The translations under genes and the position numbers were made by a program. Source: a virus. Taken from it: a stretch of DNA of 23,711 bases. Every line of letters starts with the position of its first letter. Within the stretch, counting starts at the first letter, position 1. The notes under the pieces are model-generated. The model was given only the letters and a program-made list of their open reading frames with translations, searched no databases and had not been told where the DNA came from. Where the stretch lies: IMG/VR virus record IMGVR_UViG_3300009159_000325, positions 1 to 23,711 of that record; one strand, 5' to 3'. Positions 1-23,644 of this stretch are shown here, in pieces.

Positions 1-241
1 ATGTGCCTGAGGCGACAGTCGTATAGAAGGATGCATCGACTGATCCAACTTTGGTACTTTTTTCTGGTTGTATAGGTTTATTTTTACCAATAAGATTTGG
101 TATGGTTCCAGTTTTCTGGAAGCTATTACCAAGAGCACTTTGAGCCATAGTTTTAGGCTGAAGTTTGGACCCCAAGCCAGTCATTACTGACTGCATAGAA
201 TCGGATACTTTTGGTTTTTCATTTTTTTGGGGTAGAATCAT
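1..241 (-). CDS. Probable tape-measure / hub protein, N-terminal part (runs off left edge)
   Basis: An open frame of 80 codons starts at an ATG at 241 and stays open to the window edge, so only the N-terminus is seen. It begins MILPQKNEKPKVSDSMQSVM and is rich in Lys, Ser, Thr and Gln with no hydrophobic core, as expected for a flexible leading segment. The ATG overlaps the stop of the upstream small ORF in an ATGA arrangement, which suggests translational coupling; no good ribosome binding site is visible. In tailed phages the gene directly after the tail-assembly chaperone pair is usually the tape measure, which sets tail length inside the tube. That position, not recognised sequence homology, is the main reason for the call. 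It could instead be another hub component. Confidence 0.5.
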   Translation of the reverse strand, partial: MILPQKNEKPKVSDSMQSVMTGLGSKLQPKTMAQSALGNSFQKTGTIPNLIGKNKPIQPEKSTKVGSVDASFYTTVASGT

Positions 242-369
242 CTTTGTCTTTGCTTAATCTTTTCGTTTTGTTCCTCAACATATTGAATAAGCATAGCAAC
301 ATAAATGTCACGTTCCCAAGGTATCATATTTTCAAGTTCAAACAAACTATACTTGTGATGTTGTATCAT
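238..369 (-). CDS. 51: Small gp51-like tail assembly ORF (43 aa from ATG; probably expressed as a -1 frameshift extension of gp26)
   Basis: This short ORF encodes 43 residues beginning MIQHHKYSLFELENMIPWER and ending in a Glu/Gln/Lys/Arg-rich helix. The segment LENMIPWERDIYV resembles the small protein that follows gp26 in T4-like aquatic phages and is often labelled gp51 (baseplate hub assembly). No Shine-Dalgarno sequence precedes the ATG at 369. The same frame is open for a further 18 codons upstream, through a protein-like stretch (RHDNLKNYYKTNFS) that reaches back to a slippery heptamer inside the end of gp26. I therefore infer that the main product is a gp26 fusion and that the ATG may not be a real start. 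Its stop overlaps the next start codon. T4 gp51 itself is much longer (about 249 aa), so equivalence is by position and assumed role. Confidence 0.6.
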   Translation of the reverse strand: MIQHHKYSLFELENMIPWERDIYVAMLIQYVEEQNEKIKQRQR

Positions 370-1142
370 TGAAAAGTTTGTTTTATAGTAATTCTTCAGA
401 TTGTCATGACGAAATGTTAGACGAAAAAACTTTCTAGCCCCTCCGCTGTAATTTTATGATCGAATCCACATTTACGACATTTGAATTCTACTTTCTTATT
501 TAACTTAGGTAAATTCTCAAAGAATTCTTCTATCTTTTTAAATTGTTGTTGATTCAAAGACTCAAGAAAATCTACGATTTCACCTGGTTCGGTCTCATTG
601 GCATAAAAGTATTGTTCTCCATCAAAGATACTTTCGACACTTTCAACAATCATATTGAATGCCATATCTGTGGTGTTGTCAAATTTAGTTGAAGAACCTA
701 TCACAGAAAATTCTGGATACTTTAATTTTATACTAATTCTGTCAGTTAACTGAATAGAATCACTAATTGATTCATCTCTATCAACCTTAATATCTAAAAG
801 GTTAATTTCAACATCCATCATGTTGTTACAGGTTCTATCTTCAACAACATTCTCACAACGATACCTATTCTCTACAATTTCACCAACAGACCTTGCTCGA
901 AGGTTAATGAAATAGTATTCAACATCAATAATTGGTAATGAATCTATATCAATATTTTCTGTCAAGGTACAATTATGTAAAACTTGTTTTATATTTTTCT
1001 CAATGGTATCTTTATCATCTGATTCCATTGCCATCAATAAATTCTTTTGTTCTTTGACTAAGAAAGGTCTAAATCGAATAGTTTTCTTTGATAGTGGTAA
1101 TTCAAGTTCATAAATTGGTGTATCAATTTTTGGCAAAGCCAT
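238..1142 (-). CDS. Predicted gp26-gp51 fusion made by -1 ribosomal frameshifting (301 aa)
   Basis: If ribosomes slip back one base on the heptamer at 429-423, translation runs from residue 240 of gp26 (Phe-Phe) directly into 61 further codons and ends at the TGA at 240-238. The product is 301 residues and joins the gp26 domain to the conserved LENMIPWERDIYV segment. The -1 frame has no stop anywhere between slippery site and TGA, and its amino-acid composition is protein-like throughout. Fusions of this kind (gpG-gpGT in lambda and equivalents in P2, Mu and many siphophages) act as chaperones that bind the tape measure and recruit tube subunits. The gene just downstream is the probable tape measure, which fits. 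This is inferred from sequence only. Confidence 0.62.
417..1142 (-). CDS. 26: gp26-like baseplate hub assembly protein / tail assembly chaperone
   Basis: This 241-residue protein has the size and layout of the T4 gp26 baseplate family (T4 gp26 is about 208 aa). The N-terminus resembles that family (KTIRFRPFLVKEQKNLLMAM), followed by an acidic helical region (residues 40-60). Four cysteines, C96, C105, C222 and C225 (the last two in a CRKC knuckle), could bind zinc. In T4 gp26 is needed for hub assembly and is present in few copies or absent from the final particle. An AGGAG ribosome binding site lies about 8 nt before the ATG. The C-terminus, ESFFV, is encoded over a T-TTT-TTC slippery sequence, and the next ORF lies in the -1 frame. 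That is the arrangement of lambda G/GT chaperones. Confidence 0.75.
   Translation of the reverse strand: MALPKIDTPIYELELPLSKKTIRFRPFLVKEQKNLLMAMESDDKDTIEKNIKQVLHNCTLTENIDIDSLPIIDVEYYFINLRARSVGEIVENRYRCENVVEDRTCNNMMDVEINLLDIKVDRDESISDSIQLTDRISIKLKYPEFSVIGSSTKFDNTTDMAFNMIVESVESIFDGEQYFYANETEPGEIVDFLESLNQQQFKKIEEFFENLPKLNKKVEFKCRKCGFDHKITAEGLESFFV
423..444 (-). promoter_or_regulatory. Programmed -1 frameshift signal: slippery T-TTT-TTC plus upstream GGAGG
   Basis: On the minus strand the gp26 codons TTT TTC (428-423) are preceded by T at 429, giving the canonical X-XXY-YYZ heptamer T-TTT-TTC. It lies one sense codon before the gp26 stop. A GGAGGGG run (444-438), unusual in this AT-rich genome, sits upstream, with its GGAGG core ending 10 nt before the heptamer. 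Shine-Dalgarno-like elements at this distance stimulate -1 slippage, as in E. coli dnaX. I saw no convincing downstream stem-loop; there is only an 8-bp palindrome, GTCATGAC. Confidence 0.68.
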
Positions 1143-1173: not shown

Positions 1174-1716
1174 TTATGGTAGAACAGGAAAAGCACCTAG
1201 TGGAAGGTTTGGTGTTTTTGTCCAATAAGTATATGCAAAAACTACTGTTAACTTGTGGTGACCATCCGATGACCAGTCTAAATCTAATTGATTAACTGAT
1301 ATTGGATAACAGTCTATCAAATCTACAGAATATGTTGGATTATTTTGTAAATCATATTGTACTATTGTTATTTCAGAAATATAATCTTTTTTATATTTTG
1401 GATTAAAATTACTTGATGGAACAACTAATTCCATCCATGAATCGAAAAAATTCTTCTCAGCCATATCTCCAGAAACGATGAAGGTTAATGATAAATCATT
1501 ATATATTGTGTGGTAAGGATATTTTTCAAGTGGATTTGAACCAAATTTTTGTTCTATGGTTGAAAATGTTCTACCTGGCAATTCAGCCGTTTCGCATCGC
1601 AATTTTGAATTTGTTAGTTGCAATCTACCTACTGGAGGTATGAAAACTTCAAACCTATTAGGTCTGGCCAAATCTTTTGTGAAACTACTCATAAAATCTG
1701 AAATATTTGCTGGCAT
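1174..1716 (-). CDS. T4 gp19/gp54-family tail tube protein (probable tube initiator)
   Basis: This 180-residue protein matches the pattern of the T4 gp19 tail-tube family: an N-terminal FTKDLARPNRFEVFIPP strand, LRCETAELPGRTFST, a YNDLSLTFIVSGDM strand, FFDSWMELV, and a C-terminal DWSSDGHHKLTVVFAYTYW strand. Members stack as hexamers to form the tube through which DNA passes. T4 has a major tube protein (gp19) and a related initiator (gp54) that sits on the hub. This gene lies among hub-assembly genes, next to gp26 and close to gp48, rather than beside a sheath gene. I therefore favour a gp54-like initiator over the bulk tube protein, although it is shorter than T4 gp54 (about 320 aa). An AAGG motif precedes the start. 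Confidence 0.7.
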   Translation of the reverse strand: MPANISDFMSSFTKDLARPNRFEVFIPPVGRLQLTNSKLRCETAELPGRTFSTIEQKFGSNPLEKYPYHTIYNDLSLTFIVSGDMAEKNFFDSWMELVVPSSNFNPKYKKDYISEITIVQYDLQNNPTYSVDLIDCYPISVNQLDLDWSSDGHHKLTVVFAYTYWTKTPNLPLGAFPVLP

Positions 1717-4581: not shown

Positions 4582-5922
4582 TTGGCTACTGGTATTTTAA
4601 ATTCCAAAGACTATGCAATAAGTAATTTATTATTACTTACGGCTGACTCAAGCTTCGATCTCAAGAATATGATGATTGAGATTGGGTATACCGAAGATTT
4701 ATTCAATAATGTTAGTTATGGTTATGTCGTTATCACAGAAGCAATGGGTTATATTGAAACACTTGCTATGATGGGAAATGAATTCCTTAGATTGACATTC
4801 AGTAAAACTGGTGAATCTTTTAATCAAATAGATAAAGTTTTTCGGGTATTTAAATTATCCGATAGAAAACTTGAAGGTACAACTTACAAAGAATCTTATA
4901 CGTTGCATTTCTGTTCAGAAGAATTATTGTTATCTTCACAATATAAGATTTCTAAAGTGTACAAGTCAGAAACAGTTTCAAACATGGTTACTGACATACT
5001 TAAAAACTATTTGCAAGTATCACCAAATAGAATCAATACTATTGAACCATCATATGGCAATTACAGTTTTACGTTGCCTACGATTAGTCCATTTGATGCA
5101 ATCAATTGGATATCAATATACGCAAGACCAAATCCATCAAATCCTGGTGCAGATATGGTTTTCTATGAAAATAAAGACGGGTATAATTTTAGATCATTGC
5201 AAACAATGATGTTGCAATCACCTTTTAGAACGTACACATACAAACCAAAAAACGTTAACTTTTCAGATATAAATTATTCAGTATTCAACGTTATCACATA
5301 TGAAATTTTAAATTCATTCGATTCGTTAGATGCAATTCATTCTGGAATATTTGCAAATCAATTGATATCGGTTAATCCAACTACTAGGGAAAGAAAAGTA
5401 ACCAATTTTGATTATAATGATTATCAAAACAAATCAAAGAAATTAAACAACTATCCAATCACCAACAATTTTACAAATAGGTTTGGTGACGGGTTGAATC
5501 AGACACCACAAGCTGTAACTAAATTGGTATTTTCTAATTTTGATTCAAAATTTAATAGTTATATCTCTAGTGCTCCAGCTTCAGCCAGCGCACCTGATAT
5601 TTTTGCAGAAACTTACATACCATATAGAACTGCACAGTTAGCTCTTGCAAATTACACAAGATTGAAAATATCTGTTCCTGGTGATCCTACTTTGACTGTT
5701 GGTGGTATTATAACCTTTGATCTAACAACAAAACAACCAGATAGTTCTAATCCGGATAGATATTATTCCGGAAATTACTTGATAACTGCTGTTAAACATC
5801 AAATTGGTTTGACGGAATATATAACTATTCTAGAAATAACAAAAGAAAGTGTGCCAACACAGTACCCACAAACGGATAATTCTTCATCTCTGTGGAAAAA
5901 TACCTCTAAGGGAAATATATAA
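4582..5922 (+). CDS. 27: gp27-like baseplate hub protein (TTG start)
   Basis: This 446-residue protein is the likely trimeric hub ring that sits between tube and spike (T4 gp27 is about 391 aa). Features in line with that fold are an N-terminal strand region (NMMIEIGYTEDLFNNVSYGY), a hub-type beta segment (residues 35-110, including ESYTLHFCSEELLLSSQYK), a helix typical of spike hubs (VSNMVTDILKNYL), and SPFDAINWISIYARP. Near the C-terminus is an OB-like segment with the pattern LKISVPGDPTLTVGGIITFD followed by YLITAVKHQI. The start is TTG at 4582: an in-frame stop at 4567-4569 precludes any upstream ATG, and the first internal Met is near residue 29. A weak GGGAAG lies just upstream. The end overlaps the next start by one base. 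Confidence 0.75.
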   Translation: MATGILNSKDYAISNLLLLTADSSFDLKNMMIEIGYTEDLFNNVSYGYVVITEAMGYIETLAMMGNEFLRLTFSKTGESFNQIDKVFRVFKLSDRKLEGTTYKESYTLHFCSEELLLSSQYKISKVYKSETVSNMVTDILKNYLQVSPNRINTIEPSYGNYSFTLPTISPFDAINWISIYARPNPSNPGADMVFYENKDGYNFRSLQTMMLQSPFRTYTYKPKNVNFSDINYSVFNVITYEILNSFDSLDAIHSGIFANQLISVNPTTRERKVTNFDYNDYQNKSKKLNNYPITNNFTNRFGDGLNQTPQAVTKLVFSNFDSKFNSYISSAPASASAPDIFAETYIPYRTAQLALANYTRLKISVPGDPTLTVGGIITFDLTTKQPDSSNPDRYYSGNYLITAVKHQIGLTEYITILEITKESVPTQYPQTDNSSSLWKNTSKGNI

Positions 5923-6284
5923 TGTCAAAAGTTACTAATAACTTTGCAGGTCTAAATGGATTTGTATGGTGGGTTGGTGAAATTGTAGATCGTGCGGATG
6001 AATTAGGTATGTCTAGATATCGTGTCCGTATCTTTGGATGGTACGGAGATGAAATAGAAGATTCAGATTTACCATGGGCATCCGCTATGTTGCCAACAAA
6101 TTCATCCGATTCTTTTTCACCAATGAAAAAACATGATTGGGTTGTTGGTTTCTTTATGGATGGTGAATCTGGCCAATATCCTATAATAATGGGTGTTCTT
6201 CCTGGTGTTAGTCAAGTTGATAGTGGTGTCGGTGATAATACATCACCAGTGACGGTTGGTCCAAATCAGTATGTATCGGAATAA
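5922..6284 (+). CDS. 5: gp5-like hub OB-fold protein without lysozyme domain
   Basis: This 120-residue protein corresponds to the N-terminal OB domain of T4 gp5. Family marks are WWVGEIVDRADELGMSRYRV, RIFGWYGD, SDLPWASAMLP, HDWVVGFFMDGESGQYPIIM and GVLPG. In T4 this domain binds gp27 and is fused to a lysozyme and a beta-helical needle in one 575-aa chain. Here the frame stops after the OB domain and a short tail. The needle appears to be encoded two genes downstream, and no lysozyme is visible. The start codon overlaps the gp27 stop (TAATG), with AAGGGA upstream, so production of gp27 and gp5 is probably coupled. Confidence 0.82.
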   Translation: MSKVTNNFAGLNGFVWWVGEIVDRADELGMSRYRVRIFGWYGDEIEDSDLPWASAMLPTNSSDSFSPMKKHDWVVGFFMDGESGQYPIIMGVLPGVSQVDSGVGDNTSPVTVGPNQYVSE

Positions 6285-17239: not shown

Positions 17240-20200
17240 ATGCCTCTGAATTTCAATGTTGATCCTTATTATGACGACTTCGATCCAGCAAAAAATTATC
17301 ATCGAGTTTTGTTTAAACCGGGCTTTGCTGTTCAGGCTAGAGAATTAACTCAGGCACAGACTATATTACAAGATCAAATTACTAAGTTTGCTGATAACAT
17401 CTTCAAGCAAAACTCGCCTGTTACTGGTGGACAAGTAACTACAAACTTAAATTGTAATTATATAAAATTACAATCAACTTACAACAATTCTTCAATTGAT
17501 GTTACTGATTTTTTAGGTAAATTAGTTCAAGATGCAACGGGAACAATTCTAGCTCGTGTTATTGCTGTGGCGGCTCCTACTGGTACTGAAGGTGTTGGTG
17601 ATCCACCAACTCTGATTGTTTCTTATACATCAGGAGAGCATTTTTCAGACAGTGATGTTATTTATGATACTGGTTCAAACTTAGCTGCTCAAGCTGTTAT
17701 TTTGGATGCAACTGGTCAAAGTTCTGTGGTTTCTATTGCTCAAGGCGTGTTTTATATCTCATCTAACTATACCAGATCAGATGGTATAGTTATTTCAAAT
17801 GGTACTTTTGTTCAGGTCAACCCACAAACCACTATTTTAAGTAAGTATAGCAAGTTACCTAGTTTACGTGTTGGTCTAAACATTACAGAAACAATTCGAG
17901 ATTATGTAGATGACACATCACTTCTGGATCCAGCTATTGGGGCATCAAACTATCAAGCACCAGGTGCAGATAGATATCTTATTTCACTAGCGTTGGAGAC
18001 TCGTCCATTGTCTTTGGGTGATGATGACGGCTTCATTGAATTACTTCGTATTACAGGTGGTAATATTGCCAAACTGGTAGACGGTTCAGTTTATAACGTC
18101 ATTGATGACTATTTTGCTAAACGTGACTATGAAACGAATGGTGATTATGTTGTTCAAGATTTCAAATTAACACCAAGAACAAATTCCGCAGATAGTTCAA
18201 ACAATACATATCTTATGAGTATTGGTAAAGGTCTGGCATATGTTCATGGTTATAGAACAGAAAATCCAGATCAAGTTGATTTATTAACTAATAGAGCAAG
18301 AACCACAGAATCACAAGGTAACAATCCCATATTCATGAATTATGGTAGTTATTTTTATGTTAACACGGTTCGTGGTGCAAATGGTTCTTCAGGATTAAGT
18401 AATACCACAACAACACAAACAATAGATTTACACTGCGTACCAGTAGCCAACGTTAACGTGGCATCAGCAATTGCATATAGTTCAACTCTTGTTGGTTCTG
18501 GTTATATTCGTGGTTTAGTATACGATACCAACACAACTGATGCAGCAAACACCTTTGTTTATAAAGCATATGTTTACAATGTACAAAACAACACACTGAC
18601 AGGAAATGCAGTATCCGCAACAGCCAATACTATTACATTACCAAGTACATTCTCCGTGGCTAATTCAGCGTATGTTGGTGTGGATATTTCTATCACTTCT
18701 GGAACTGATGCTGGCGATTTTAAAACAATCACTGCTTACAATGGAGTAACAAAAACAGCAACAGTAAATGCTAATTGGATTGCAACACCAGATACATCAT
18801 CAAATTTTGCTTTGAATTTTGGCATTAAAGATGTTGATATTTTAATGACAGCAACAAAATCCTCATACCCCGCACTTATTACTGGAACCGCATCAATTGA
18901 TCCAATAAGTCGTGTTGGTGGTATCTCTGCTGGTGCAACAGTTTTACAAAACCCAATTACACCAGAATTAATATTTCCTCTTGGTAATCCTTATGTTTCG
19001 AATTTAACCGACACATCATACACAACAACGAGAGTATTTAAAGGTGTCTCTTTCTCTGGTTCGCCAACTGTTACTGGAACATTAAGTCTTTCTTCTTATT
19101 CTGGTGCAATTAAGCACATTGGTTCAGGAGTATTAAGTCCAAGTACAGTCAAACAAAACTTTACTGTTATTGTAACAAATGCCGGAACATCTACTTTTGC
19201 TGTTGGCGATTTAGTTAACTGGTCAACAACAGGTAGAACAGTTACAATAACTTCAGGTGCAACTACATCTGTAGCAGATATGTCAGTTGCCACTTCTGCT
19301 ATTGGTGGTGGATTTACAGCAGATGTAATTGTCACAGTTCAAGTTTTAAATGGTGATAATACAAGTTATGTATTAAAAAATAAAAATTTAGTTAATGCAA
19401 ATACAACAGTTGTTAATGTAAGCGGAACAACTGTAAACACAAATATTTTTATTGATCAAACATTAGGTCAAGTTTATATTACAAAAGCAGGATTAGTTTC
19501 TCCTGGTTTAAAACAAAGTTTATATATTTCTGATGTAAAAAATGTAATTAAAATTATAGATACACGTAGTGCGAATACTTCAGCTAATGTAGCAATGTTA
19601 ACAAATCCATCTCATGATATCACGAATAATTACATTTTTGATAATGGACAAAGAGATAACTTTTACGACCATGCAACATTAACGTTACGTTCAGGCGCAC
19701 CTCAACCAATAGGTAATATTCTTGTTCTAATGAATTTCTATCAACATTCAAGTACTGTTGGTGGTTATTTCAGTAAAATGTCGTACATTGATATAGCGAC
19801 AAGTCCAGAAAATTACAATCAGATTCCAAGATATACAAGTACAAATGGTACAACATATACACTCCGTGATTGTGTTGACTTTAGACCAACAAGAACAAAC
19901 GCAACGACAGCATTTGCTTTTGATTCTGGTGATGTAGCATTTTTACCTATAGATGGTTCAACATTTATTGGTGATTATGCTTATTATCTTGGTCGAAAAG
20001 ACCTTTTAGTATTAACAAAAGATAAGAGTTTCAATATAATTCAGGGCGCACCTTCTTTACAACCAATACTTCCTCCAACACCTGATGGTGCATTATTAGT
20101 TGCCAATTTAAATCTGGATCCATATACAGCATATTTACCTTCAGAAGTTCCTAATTCTGGTCTTCCAGCTAATCTTTCGATTGATAAAGTTCAGCATAAA

Positions 20201-23200
20201 CGATATACGATGCAAGACATTTCAGGTCTGGAAAGTCGTATCAATCAAGTTGAATATTATACAGCACTCAATCTATTAGAACAAAATGCACAATCATTGC
20301 AGATTTCAGATGCACTAGGATTGAATCGTTTCAAAAATGGTATTTTGGTAGATGACTTCTCAAGTTATGCGGCAGCAGATACACTTAACCGTGACTATTT
20401 TGCCACCATTAACAAAAGAACAAGACAAATGACCGCAAGTCAAAATGTTAATAATTTCCCATTGAAATCATTATTACAAGCATACAATATGGGAGCATTG
20501 GTTCCTTCGGCAGCAGCGGCACAAAATATTGCAATCAATCAAGATGGTTATGTTAGTTATTTTACACTACCATATACCACATCAAATGTGATCACACAAA
20601 AAATTGCCAGCAGAGATACAAATATAAATCCATTTGCTATCCCTAGGTCTGAGGGTGTGATTCAATTAACACCAAATACAGACAACTGGGTAGATAAAGA
20701 CTATGCGCCAGCATTACTGATCACGGACCCAAACTTACAAGTCTATAGAGCGTCTAATAGCGTTAACATATTGAGCGTTGGTGATTGGCAAACTATTTCA
20801 TCCACAAGCACATCCGTTTCCTCATCATCACAATCATCATCTAGTACACAACAAGAAAATCATAACTGGTCACAAGATTGGGGATTTGGTGCAGGTATTG
20901 GTGTTCAGTCAGATTCAACAACTACAACTACAACAACATTTACATCAACATCATCATTACAAAGTCAAAATAATATATTAGGTCCATACAGTAGAATTGG
21001 CAATACCTATGCACTTAATAATGGATACATTACCGATATTAGTATTTTGCCTTGGATTAGACCACAACAAGTTGTTGCTAGAACAAAGGGACTTTTGGTT
21101 AATACTACATTACATACGACATTTGACGGTATTGATGTTGATAGATATGTAAGAAATCCAAATATTATTGAATTGACAAATGTGAATTTGAGTAATGGTG
21201 GATTCAAAGAAGATGATGTGATTGGTTATTATACAGGTGGTGCATTTAAGAGTACAGCAAGAGTTGTCGGTGTTTATGTATATCCTAACACAGTCAATTC
21301 AATAACACAAACCGCAAACACAAGATTATATGTTGCTGCTGATGGTTATTCATCAACATATTCAACTACAGGTGTTATTCAAAATGCTTTATTTAATGCA
21401 TCTGGCGTTTATCAATCAAATACTGCGGCAGGTACAATAGTTTCAACAAAGCACGTTGCTGCTGTAGTTAAGGGTGTTTCTGGAAATACAATAACACTCT
21501 CACCATTGTCATCTTCAACTGACATTTATACAGGTAATACAATTCAAATCACCGCAGGTGTTGGTAGTGGTCAGTCGTATATTATCAACTCTTATAACGT
21601 AGCAACAAAAAATGTAACAGTTACCTCAGCATCAGTATCGTGTGCAAACGGAGACTTTTATTCGGTTGGTGGATTCAAATCAGATGAAACTGGTAGTTTC
21701 TATGGTATATTGAATATACCTCCAAATGCTTTTCATACAGGCGAGAGAGTATTCCGTGTTGACAATAACACAAACGGAAATGCAAATACAGCGACAACTT
21801 ATGCTCAAAGTACTTTCTATGCATCTGGATTATCTACAAAAGTTCAAGAAATTGATTTTGGTGCATCTCCATCTGGCGCAAAAGGAACTTTCACAAGAAC
21901 ACAACAAAGAACTGTTGTAAGTACATCCGTATCTGTAAGTGAAGATACTTTTTCATCATTGTCACCATACGATCCAGTTGCACAAACATTTATGGTTGAT
22001 GTTGAAAATTATCCCAATGGTGTATTTTTGAGCGACATTAAAGTTTTCTTCAGATCAAAACCAACAATTGTTAATTCACCAGTTACATTATCAATTGTTG
22101 GAACATTAAATGGTTATCCAAATGGTTTAACTTTAGACCATTCTGTAGTAACATTAACTCCAGATCAAATTAAAACATCTGAGAATCCACATTATTTGGA
22201 TAACACAACATATACTCAATTTAAGTTTGCTGTTCCTGTATATATTCAACCAGATGTAATGTATGCATTCATTCTCAGATCATCGAGTAATGAATATACG
22301 ATGTGGACTGCGGCTAATGGCGATACAGCAATTCCATCGTCTGTTAAAAACTTACCGACAGATCCAACTCCAACAACAATCACTAAGATTTCTACTCCTC
22401 CATATACAGGTTCTTTGTTTATATCACAGAACTCACAAACATGGACAGCGGAACAAAATCAAGGATTGATGTTTACTGTTGATAGATGTGTGTTCAATAC
22501 ATCAGTGACACCAAGCATTCAGTTTGTTGTTCCTAATGGATTGCCACAAAGATCAATGATTGATACTTCAATTGCTTATTTTGAAAATTCAAATGTGACA
22601 TCCAATGCAGTAACTACAGTAACAAGATCAAACGTTGTGGCTGATGCTTTTAATATCACAACAACAGATTTCTTACCAAGCACAACAGGTATTGGATATT
22701 CTTACAATTCAACATTGGCTTCTGGTTCGGCAGCAGGACTAAGAAATGTTAATCCAGGTAAATATGCCACATCAATGTCTGATAACATATATCTGAGTGA
22801 TGGATTAGGTGAACGTATACTTGCTGCAAATTCAAATACCTCGTTCTCGTTATATGCACAATTATCATCAGTTGATCCTGCTGTAAGTCCAATCATTTCT
22901 GATGCAGGATTGTCGGTTTATTCTATTCAATGGAATATCAATAACTGTGAATTGTCAAATAGTTTAATTACTATTGTTAATGGTGGCACTGGTTATGCAA
23001 ATGGTAATGTAATAACTGCCAACGTAGTTGTTTCGGCACCAACAGGAAGAAATGGTGAGCAAGCATATGCTATAGCTAACGTGGTGAATAATGCAGTTTC
23101 TAGTGTAACGTTCACTTCAGTCGGTTCTGGGTATGTTACAACACCAACAATCACTATACTGGGAAGTAACACATCAAGGGCTAATATTATAATTACTGGT

Positions 23201-23644
23201 GAAACTTCTAGTTCTGGTGGTCCTGCTATAGCTAAATATATGACAAAGAAAGTTGTGTTAAATGCTGGATTTGATTCTGGTGACTTAAATGTGTATATGA
23301 CAGCATATCGTCCTATTAACACAGATATCCTTGTTTACTACAAAATATTAAGTAGAACAGATACACAAAGTTTCGATGATGGTAGTTGGCAATTAATGAC
23401 CATGACAAACAGTTCTGATACACTATATTCGCAAACAAGATCAAACTTGTATGAATATACTTTCTCACCAGGAACAAATGGTGTAGATCAGGGTTATGTT
23501 TCTTACACTAGCACGAATGGTCAATCATATACAAACTTCAGTCAATTCGCAATCAAAATTGTACTAACATCAACTGATCATACATATACACCTTTCTTAA
23601 CGGATTTAAGATGTATTGCTTTACCTTCAAATACTAATTTATAG
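17240..23644 (+). CDS. Giant DUF4815-type virion structural protein (2134 aa)
   Basis: The N-terminus (YYDDFDPAKNYHRVLFKPGF, then AVQARELTQAQTILQDQITK) is the signature of the DUF4815 family, large baseplate-peripheral proteins of aquatic T4-like phages. Landmarks: about 455-526 and 1412-1476, two copies of a beta module; about 1187-1250, a Ser/Thr/Gln-rich low-complexity linker; about 1260-1310, ITDISILPWIRPQQVVARTK and TTFDGIDVDRYV; about 1575-1765, a conserved-looking beta domain (YDPVAQTFMVDVENYPNGVF); about 1907-1988, a Gly-Gly-x-Gly-Tyr module; and a C-terminal beta domain. AAAGGA lies 5 nt before the ATG. It follows gp8, where T4 places gp9 and gp10, so I infer that it takes over the gp10-like role of linking wedges to fibres. 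It may also bind the host. Confidence 0.8.
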   Translation: MPLNFNVDPYYDDFDPAKNYHRVLFKPGFAVQARELTQAQTILQDQITKFADNIFKQNSPVTGGQVTTNLNCNYIKLQSTYNNSSIDVTDFLGKLVQDATGTILARVIAVAAPTGTEGVGDPPTLIVSYTSGEHFSDSDVIYDTGSNLAAQAVILDATGQSSVVSIAQGVFYISSNYTRSDGIVISNGTFVQVNPQTTILSKYSKLPSLRVGLNITETIRDYVDDTSLLDPAIGASNYQAPGADRYLISLALETRPLSLGDDDGFIELLRITGGNIAKLVDGSVYNVIDDYFAKRDYETNGDYVVQDFKLTPRTNSADSSNNTYLMSIGKGLAYVHGYRTENPDQVDLLTNRARTTESQGNNPIFMNYGSYFYVNTVRGANGSSGLSNTTTTQTIDLHCVPVANVNVASAIAYSSTLVGSGYIRGLVYDTNTTDAANTFVYKAYVYNVQNNTLTGNAVSATANTITLPSTFSVANSAYVGVDISITSGTDAGDFKTITAYNGVTKTATVNANWIATPDTSSNFALNFGIKDVDILMTATKSSYPALITGTASIDPISRVGGISAGATVLQNPITPELIFPLGNPYVSNLTDTSYTTTRVFKGVSFSGSPTVTGTLSLSSYSGAIKHIGSGVLSPSTVKQNFTVIVTNAGTSTFAVGDLVNWSTTGRTVTITSGATTSVADMSVATSAIGGGFTADVIVTVQVLNGDNTSYVLKNKNLVNANTTVVNVSGTTVNTNIFIDQTLGQVYITKAGLVSPGLKQSLYISDVKNVIKIIDTRSANTSANVAMLTNPSHDITNNYIFDNGQRDNFYDHATLTLRSGAPQPIGNILVLMNFYQHSSTVGGYFSKMSYIDIATSPENYNQIPRYTSTNGTTYTLRDCVDFRPTRTNATTAFAFDSGDVAFLPIDGSTFIGDYAYYLGRKDLLVLTKDKSFNIIQGAPSLQPILPPTPDGALLVANLNLDPYTAYLPSEVPNSGLPANLSIDKVQHKRYTMQDISGLESRINQVEYYTALNLLEQNAQSLQISDALGLNRFKNGILVDDFSSYAAADTLNRDYFATINKRTRQMTASQNVNNFPLKSLLQAYNMGALVPSAAAAQNIAINQDGYVSYFTLPYTTSNVITQKIASRDTNINPFAIPRSEGVIQLTPNTDNWVDKDYAPALLITDPNLQVYRASNSVNILSVGDWQTISSTSTSVSSSSQSSSSTQQENHNWSQDWGFGAGIGVQSDSTTTTTTTFTSTSSLQSQNNILGPYSRIGNTYALNNGYITDISILPWIRPQQVVARTKGLLVNTTLHTTFDGIDVDRYVRNPNIIELTNVNLSNGGFKEDDVIGYYTGGAFKSTARVVGVYVYPNTVNSITQTANTRLYVAADGYSSTYSTTGVIQNALFNASGVYQSNTAAGTIVSTKHVAAVVKGVSGNTITLSPLSSSTDIYTGNTIQITAGVGSGQSYIINSYNVATKNVTVTSASVSCANGDFYSVGGFKSDETGSFYGILNIPPNAFHTGERVFRVDNNTNGNANTATTYAQSTFYASGLSTKVQEIDFGASPSGAKGTFTRTQQRTVVSTSVSVSEDTFSSLSPYDPVAQTFMVDVENYPNGVFLSDIKVFFRSKPTIVNSPVTLSIVGTLNGYPNGLTLDHSVVTLTPDQIKTSENPHYLDNTTYTQFKFAVPVYIQPDVMYAFILRSSSNEYTMWTAANGDTAIPSSVKNLPTDPTPTTITKISTPPYTGSLFISQNSQTWTAEQNQGLMFTVDRCVFNTSVTPSIQFVVPNGLPQRSMIDTSIAYFENSNVTSNAVTTVTRSNVVADAFNITTTDFLPSTTGIGYSYNSTLASGSAAGLRNVNPGKYATSMSDNIYLSDGLGERILAANSNTSFSLYAQLSSVDPAVSPIISDAGLSVYSIQWNINNCELSNSLITIVNGGTGYANGNVITANVVVSAPTGRNGEQAYAIANVVNNAVSSVTFTSVGSGYVTTPTITILGSNTSRANIIITGETSSSGGPAIAKYMTKKVVLNAGFDSGDLNVYMTAYRPINTDILVYYKILSRTDTQSFDDGSWQLMTMTNSSDTLYSQTRSNLYEYTFSPGTNGVDQGYVSYTSTNGQSYTNFSQFAIKIVLTSTDHTYTPFLTDLRCIALPSNTNL
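18607..18817 (+). repeat. Duplicated beta module, copy 1 (within DUF4815 protein)
   Basis: The translated segment reads NTITL, then DISITSGTDAGDFKTI, then TAYNGVTKTATVNANW. The same pattern recurs at 21475-21670. The similarity is at protein level; the DNA has diverged. Confidence 0.6.
21475..21670 (+). repeat. Duplicated beta module, copy 2 (within DUF4815 protein)
   Basis: The translated segment reads NTITL, then NTIQITAGVGSGQSYII, then NSYNVATKNVTVTSAS, in the same order and spacing as copy 1 about 2.9 kb upstream. Confidence 0.6.
22961..23205 (+). repeat. Gly-Gly-x-Gly-Tyr module in DUF4815 protein
   Basis: The encoded pattern is LITIVNGGTGYANGN, AYAIANVVNNAVSSVTFTSV, GSGYVTTPTITILG. 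It lies in the C-terminal 230 residues. Confidence 0.65.

Follow-up and report, generated by a model that had tools for sequence, protein, structure and literature searches.

A programmed −1 ribosomal frameshift at the heptamer T TTT TTC very probably produces a long tail assembly chaperone from the gp26 gene of a T4-like virus. The gene lies in IMG/VR virus record IMGVR_UViG_3300009159_000325, of which positions 1 to 23,711 (23,711 bases, referred to here as the window) were analyzed. T4-like tail and baseplate genes are found on both strands of the window: the minus strand encodes gp4, gp2 and a tail tube protein, and the plus strand encodes gp48, baseplate wedge proteins and a piece of a gp5-like hub.

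In the proposed mechanism, the gp26-like gene would encode the short form of the chaperone. During a minority of passages the Phe-tRNAs on TTT TTC would slip one base back to TTT TTT, probably aided by a GGAGG element 10 nt upstream that would pair with the 16S rRNA. The slipped ribosomes would miss the stop located one codon on and add 61 residues, yielding a 301-residue long form. Both forms would be present at a set ratio and, like lambda gpG and gpGT, would serve as chaperones during assembly of the tail hub and tape measure. We infer the slippage, its rate and the role of the GGAGG; the chaperone function of the gp26-like protein is a putative one, assigned by homology to T4 gp26 and gp51.

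The predicted shift site and the −1 frame in the window

The gp26-like ORF (417..1142, minus strand) encodes 241 amino acids, the predicted short form read in the 0 frame. It aligns with PF12322 over profile positions 2-218 of 219 (E 3.6e-60), that is, the domain spans the whole short protein, and with phrog_150 (E 1.2e-65). Directly upstream lies the gene of a gp54-like tail tube protein (1174..1716, minus strand; phrog_45 tail tube, E 2.7e-41). The 3' end of the gp26-like ORF (minus strand 1142..417) reads, in frame, GCG GAG GGG CTA GAA AGT TTT TTC GTC TAA. The heptamer T TTT TTC occupies positions 423..429 and the 0-frame stop TAA, one codon past it, positions 417..419, both on the minus strand. 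The −1 frame extension (238..423, minus strand) comprises 61 codons, RLTFRHDNLKNYYKTNFSMIQHHKYSLFELENMIPWERDIYVAMLIQYVEEQNEKIKQRQR, and a TGA at 240..238; it matches phrog_634 with an E value of 4e-27 and would form the C-terminal part of the long chaperone. After 18 codons it contains an internal ATG (367..369, minus strand) from which a small ORF could be annotated separately. This ATG is preceded by AACTTTTCA, without a Shine-Dalgarno sequence, and was judged not to be a start. The Shine-Dalgarno-like GGAGG (440..444, minus strand) is located exactly 10 nt upstream of the heptamer and is a possible stimulator.

An earlier sequence-only reading of the window had placed the heptamer at 429-423, one codon before the gp26 stop, with a 61-codon open −1 frame, an ATG devoid of a Shine-Dalgarno sequence and a GGAGG 10 nt upstream of the heptamer, and all of these proved correct. 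The window sequence on its own is nevertheless weak evidence, because an open run of 61 codons has a chance of ~1% in random sequence of the window's composition and the window holds 51 in-frame XXXYYYZ heptamers.

Conservation of the site and constraint on the extension

A scan of IMG/VR with the window gp26 identified 80 loci with 64–76% identity, 78 of which contain the gp26 stop; the sequence TTT TTC NNN stop together with an open −1 frame occurs in 78/78. A second scan, with a cyanophage gp26 as query, added 80 loci, with TTTTTTC in place and the −1 frame open in 80/80. The heptamer described at this single junction by the sequence-only reading is thus universal in close relatives, T TTT TTC being kept in 158/158 relatives whose gp26 stop lies inside the contig. 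The gp26 of Vibrio phage D490 used as an IMG/VR query found no relatives. Such breadth bears on the explanation that the arrangement arises from an assembly or sequencing error and that the gene is really one ORF. A homopolymer of six T is a common place for errors, but the same arrangement recurs across finished phage genomes and over 150 contigs, and the stop is always one codon on from, or directly behind, the heptamer, which leaves this explanation with a negligible probability.

The complete extension is present in 156 loci, the window included, and dereplication at 95% identity of the extension left 106. The Phe-Phe pair at the site is encoded by TTT-TTC in 106/106 of these, compared with 8/123 of the Phe-Phe pairs elsewhere in the same genes. 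The codon ahead of TTT-TTC varies (AGT, TCT, AAT, GCT, GAT, GGT, encoding Ser, Asn, Ala, Asp and Gly), yet its third base is T in 106/106. Because TTT-TTC and the preceding T are fixed at the site and TTT-TTC is rare elsewhere, selection acts on the nucleotides and not on the amino acids alone. RNA polymerase slippage on the T6 run, adding a U, would give the identical fused protein, and at the gp26 ends of VmeM-32 and C48C1 (L183, L185) the run at the shift site extends to 7–8 T. Six T is, however, short for polymerase slippage. TTT outnumbers TTC among Phe codons (848 to 376), yet the final C is invariant in 106/106, so extension of the T run is not favored; the in-frame phase and the upstream Shine-Dalgarno-like element fit slippage by the ribosome. 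Polymerase slippage is therefore considered very unlikely.

The extension is under protein-level constraint over codons 1–45. For codons 1–18, from the heptamer to the internal ATG, 48 independent pairs give a pN/pS ratio of 0.18 in the −1 frame; the continued 0 frame gives 1.08 and the +1 frame 1.92. These are the 18 codons that had been described beforehand as protein-like, which they are. The −1 frame ratio is 0.12 for codons 19–45 and 0.14 over the 45 codons. The first ATG in the extension is found at codon index 3, 4, 6, 19, 32 or elsewhere, with no position common to the loci, and 33/106 loci have no ATG, GTG or TTG within the first 18 codons. A Shine-Dalgarno-like sequence precedes candidate ATGs in 4/162 cases.

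These results can be set against the reading implied by most database annotations, in which the gp51-like tail would be a small protein of its own, initiated either at an internal ATG or, through translational coupling, at the stop of gp26. Records name it 'baseplate hub assembly catalyst', and an ATG in the right frame does lie at or near the gp26 stop in Vibrio D490, nt-1 and phiM9 (TAATG or TGATG overlap) and in S-SKS1. However, the lack of a common start, the near absence of Shine-Dalgarno sequences and the constraint on codons upstream of the ATG, which are as protein-like as those behind it, make an independent gene unlikely, and a separate small gene with an internal start was rejected on these grounds. 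Translation as a separate small protein would also leave unexplained the invariant heptamer and the fusion of the tail to PF12322 in T4 gp51. Overall it is regarded as improbable. Hundreds of cyanophage and vibriophage records either omit the gp51-like tail or give it a gene of its own, 'baseplate hub assembly catalyst', whose start is doubtful; these annotations would be corrected by treating the tail as the C-terminal part of a frameshifted protein.

Frameshifting may be stimulated from upstream. The Glu codon of a conserved Glu-Gly gives a GAGG 10 nt upstream of the heptamer, and GAG is used in 64/105 loci compared with 27% of Glu codons elsewhere (nominal p 1e-13, uncorrected for shared ancestry), a preference to which shared ancestry may in part contribute. 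The dnaX geometry comprises a Shine-Dalgarno-like element ~10 nt upstream of a slippery heptamer. The GAGG placement fits this geometry and the GGAGG of the window, ~10 nt upstream of its heptamer, is a predicted stimulator of the same type. In contrast to the dnaX-type frameshift, no downstream stem-loop was found in the window, and the search for a conserved downstream RNA stem-loop as a stimulator came up empty (z-score +1.3).

T4 gp26 and gp51 and the distribution among T4-like phages

T4 gene 51 is a complete gene of 249 codons that is transcribed divergently from gene 26, which is followed by gene 25. The two products are named as hub assembly chaperones (PMC3004832), and they are paralogues (T4 record, L082, 3803-5229). 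Residues 1–201 of T4 gp51 correspond to PF12322 (E 3.9e-52), and the last ~50 residues match the −1 extension, with a BLASTP E value of 6e-6 and an E value of 9e-9 for a profile of the tails alone. When the two frames of the window are conceptually fused, the alignment to gp51-type proteins covers 238 columns and continues across the slip point (E 9e-18). Because gp51 consists of the PF12322 domain plus the extension and is colinear with the fusion, it is the T4 counterpart of the frameshift product, and T4 gp26 is that of the short form. With a full PF12322 domain and extension encoded in a gene of its own, T4 uses two genes and no shift. The possibility that T4 gp51 is an unrelated protein was ruled out by the same composition, PF12322 plus tail, and a puzzling T4 protein is made plain as the long chaperone form with its own gene. 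The sequence-only reading had held that gp26 and gp51 of T4-like phages are one chaperone system annotated as two genes; this stands for cyanophages and similar phages but does not extend to T4, where gp51 is a full 249-residue protein of a divergent gene. Its central proposal, that a −1 shift would extend gp26 with a gp51-like tail into a pair resembling lambda G/GT, is strongly supported by the comparative sequence data.

Among the complete records searched for PF12322, the domain occurs twice in three (T4, Aeromonas 44RR2.8t and Acinetobacter AB-Navy97) and once in 17 others. At the end of gp26, none of the three two-copy genomes has a shift site that opens into an extension; T4 has TTC TTT there. 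The sequence T TTT TTN, with C, T, A or G as its final base, is present in 14 of the 17 one-copy genomes: four Kyanoviridae-type cyanophages together with S-H34, S-CRM01 and C48C1, and Vibrio D490, nt-1, Aeromonas ZPAH1 and Ah1, VmeM-32, XG4 and Sinorhizobium phiM9. Judged from these genomes, the T6 shift would be common to most distant T4 relatives, with T4 itself using two genes. In an unrooted domain tree the two-gene phages contribute two groups, one of gp26 copies and one of gp51 copies (support 97/98 and 100/100), as would be expected for one split. Recoding in most lineages and two genes in that of T4 offer a natural comparison for the question of why phages retain two chaperone forms in a set ratio.

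The remaining 3 of the 17 one-copy genomes belong to the Ackermannviridae and possess the extension but not the heptamer. In this family (18 IMG/VR loci and three phage records; L175, L176, L198-L215) the homologous extension is in the −1 frame, without a start codon and without a canonical heptamer, and has a pN/pS ratio of 0.17 in the −1 frame compared with 0.82 and 1.74 in the others. The Kuttervirus/Taipeivirus junction reads GAR ATT TTC ATY TAA throughout the loci. The two Kuttervirus and Taipeivirus records have no annotated gene for the extension. There is an even chance that the Ackermannviridae use an unusual shift site or other recoding to make the long chaperone and that expression of one chaperone has been switched among three strategies (T6 shift, other recoding and two genes) within T4-like phages; the switch would follow from recoding in Ackermannviridae without the T6 heptamer. 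Another junction, that of Vibrio phage 1.244.A, reads CTT TTT CGC TAATG, and there the small ORF is annotated separately.

Downstream gene, predicted fold and known systems

The gene that follows the extension (2..241, minus strand) is cut off at the contig end, and it starts with an ATG that overlaps the extension's TGA stop (ATGA). The partial product has no family match. In relatives this gene encodes 479 to 797 amino acids. One product contains a phage lysozyme domain (L008 3908-5494; PF00959, E 2.6e-14), a cyanophage counterpart has an endolysin-type match (L085 4206-6551), some show nothing clear, and that of Vibrio D490 has a weak tape-measure match only. The gene may encode a lysozyme of the hub or a tape measure that carries a lytic domain. 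The earlier assignment of the next gene as the likely tape measure found no support in the window clade: the gene is truncated in the window, and relatives have lysozyme/endolysin-type domains or nothing recognizable there.

The predicted gp26 fold is a good model (pLDDT 86). It has no significant match in the PDB, where the HK97 chaperone 2ob9 appears at E 8.5 with a TM score of 0.40 by target, and a sequence search for solved relatives returned none. A comparison of the model with a viral structure library retrieved gp26/gp51-type and uncharacterized phage proteins, which is consistent with the assignment and adds little.

The lambda slippery site is G GGA AAG, whereas that of the window is T TTT TTC; the two systems are likened by arrangement, with no sequence similarity claimed. 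As in the window, lambda gpG/gpGT combines a short protein, a −1 shift near the 3' end and a C-terminal extension in a tail gene cluster (PMC5009743). The chaperone frameshift of Vandenendeviridae and Andersonviridae has a conserved GTTTTT signal and a −1 extension that is unbroken and was for a long time annotated as its own gene (PMC12846349); it resembles the window in its conserved shift signal and unbroken extension but belongs to other phage families and uses another motif. Two papers (PMC10885494, PMC12846349) credit Vladimirov et al. 2022 with T4-like tail assembly chaperones carrying poly-T shift signals and, likewise, with the short-plus-long two-gene alternative in T4-like phages. 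As credited there, the chaperones of Vladimirov, Gautam and Davidson 2022 are of the same family as that of the window (PF12322), with a poly-T shift signal in the short-form gene. Going by these crediting papers, the mechanism in the T4-like group and the two-gene alternative of T4 are therefore already known. What is new from the window is an uncultured clade with the probable shift, in contrast to T4 with its separate full-length gp51 and no shift, and the calculations give quantitative support to the known mechanism.

Three further features were observed on the plus strand of the window. A 2134-residue ORF (17240-23644) matches phrog_358, a family of unknown function. At 5909-5924, a tail-protein gene (4582-5922) contains G GGA AAT in frame, 13 nt ahead of its stop, and the next ATG, which is in the −1 frame, overlaps this stop (TAATG); the AAGGG there is most simply the Shine-Dalgarno sequence of the following gene. 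A 120-residue ORF (5922-6284) resembles 'baseplate hub and tail lysozyme' families (640–930 residues) over no more than their first ~100 residues, and the gp5-type hub protein thus seems to be split or reduced in the window.
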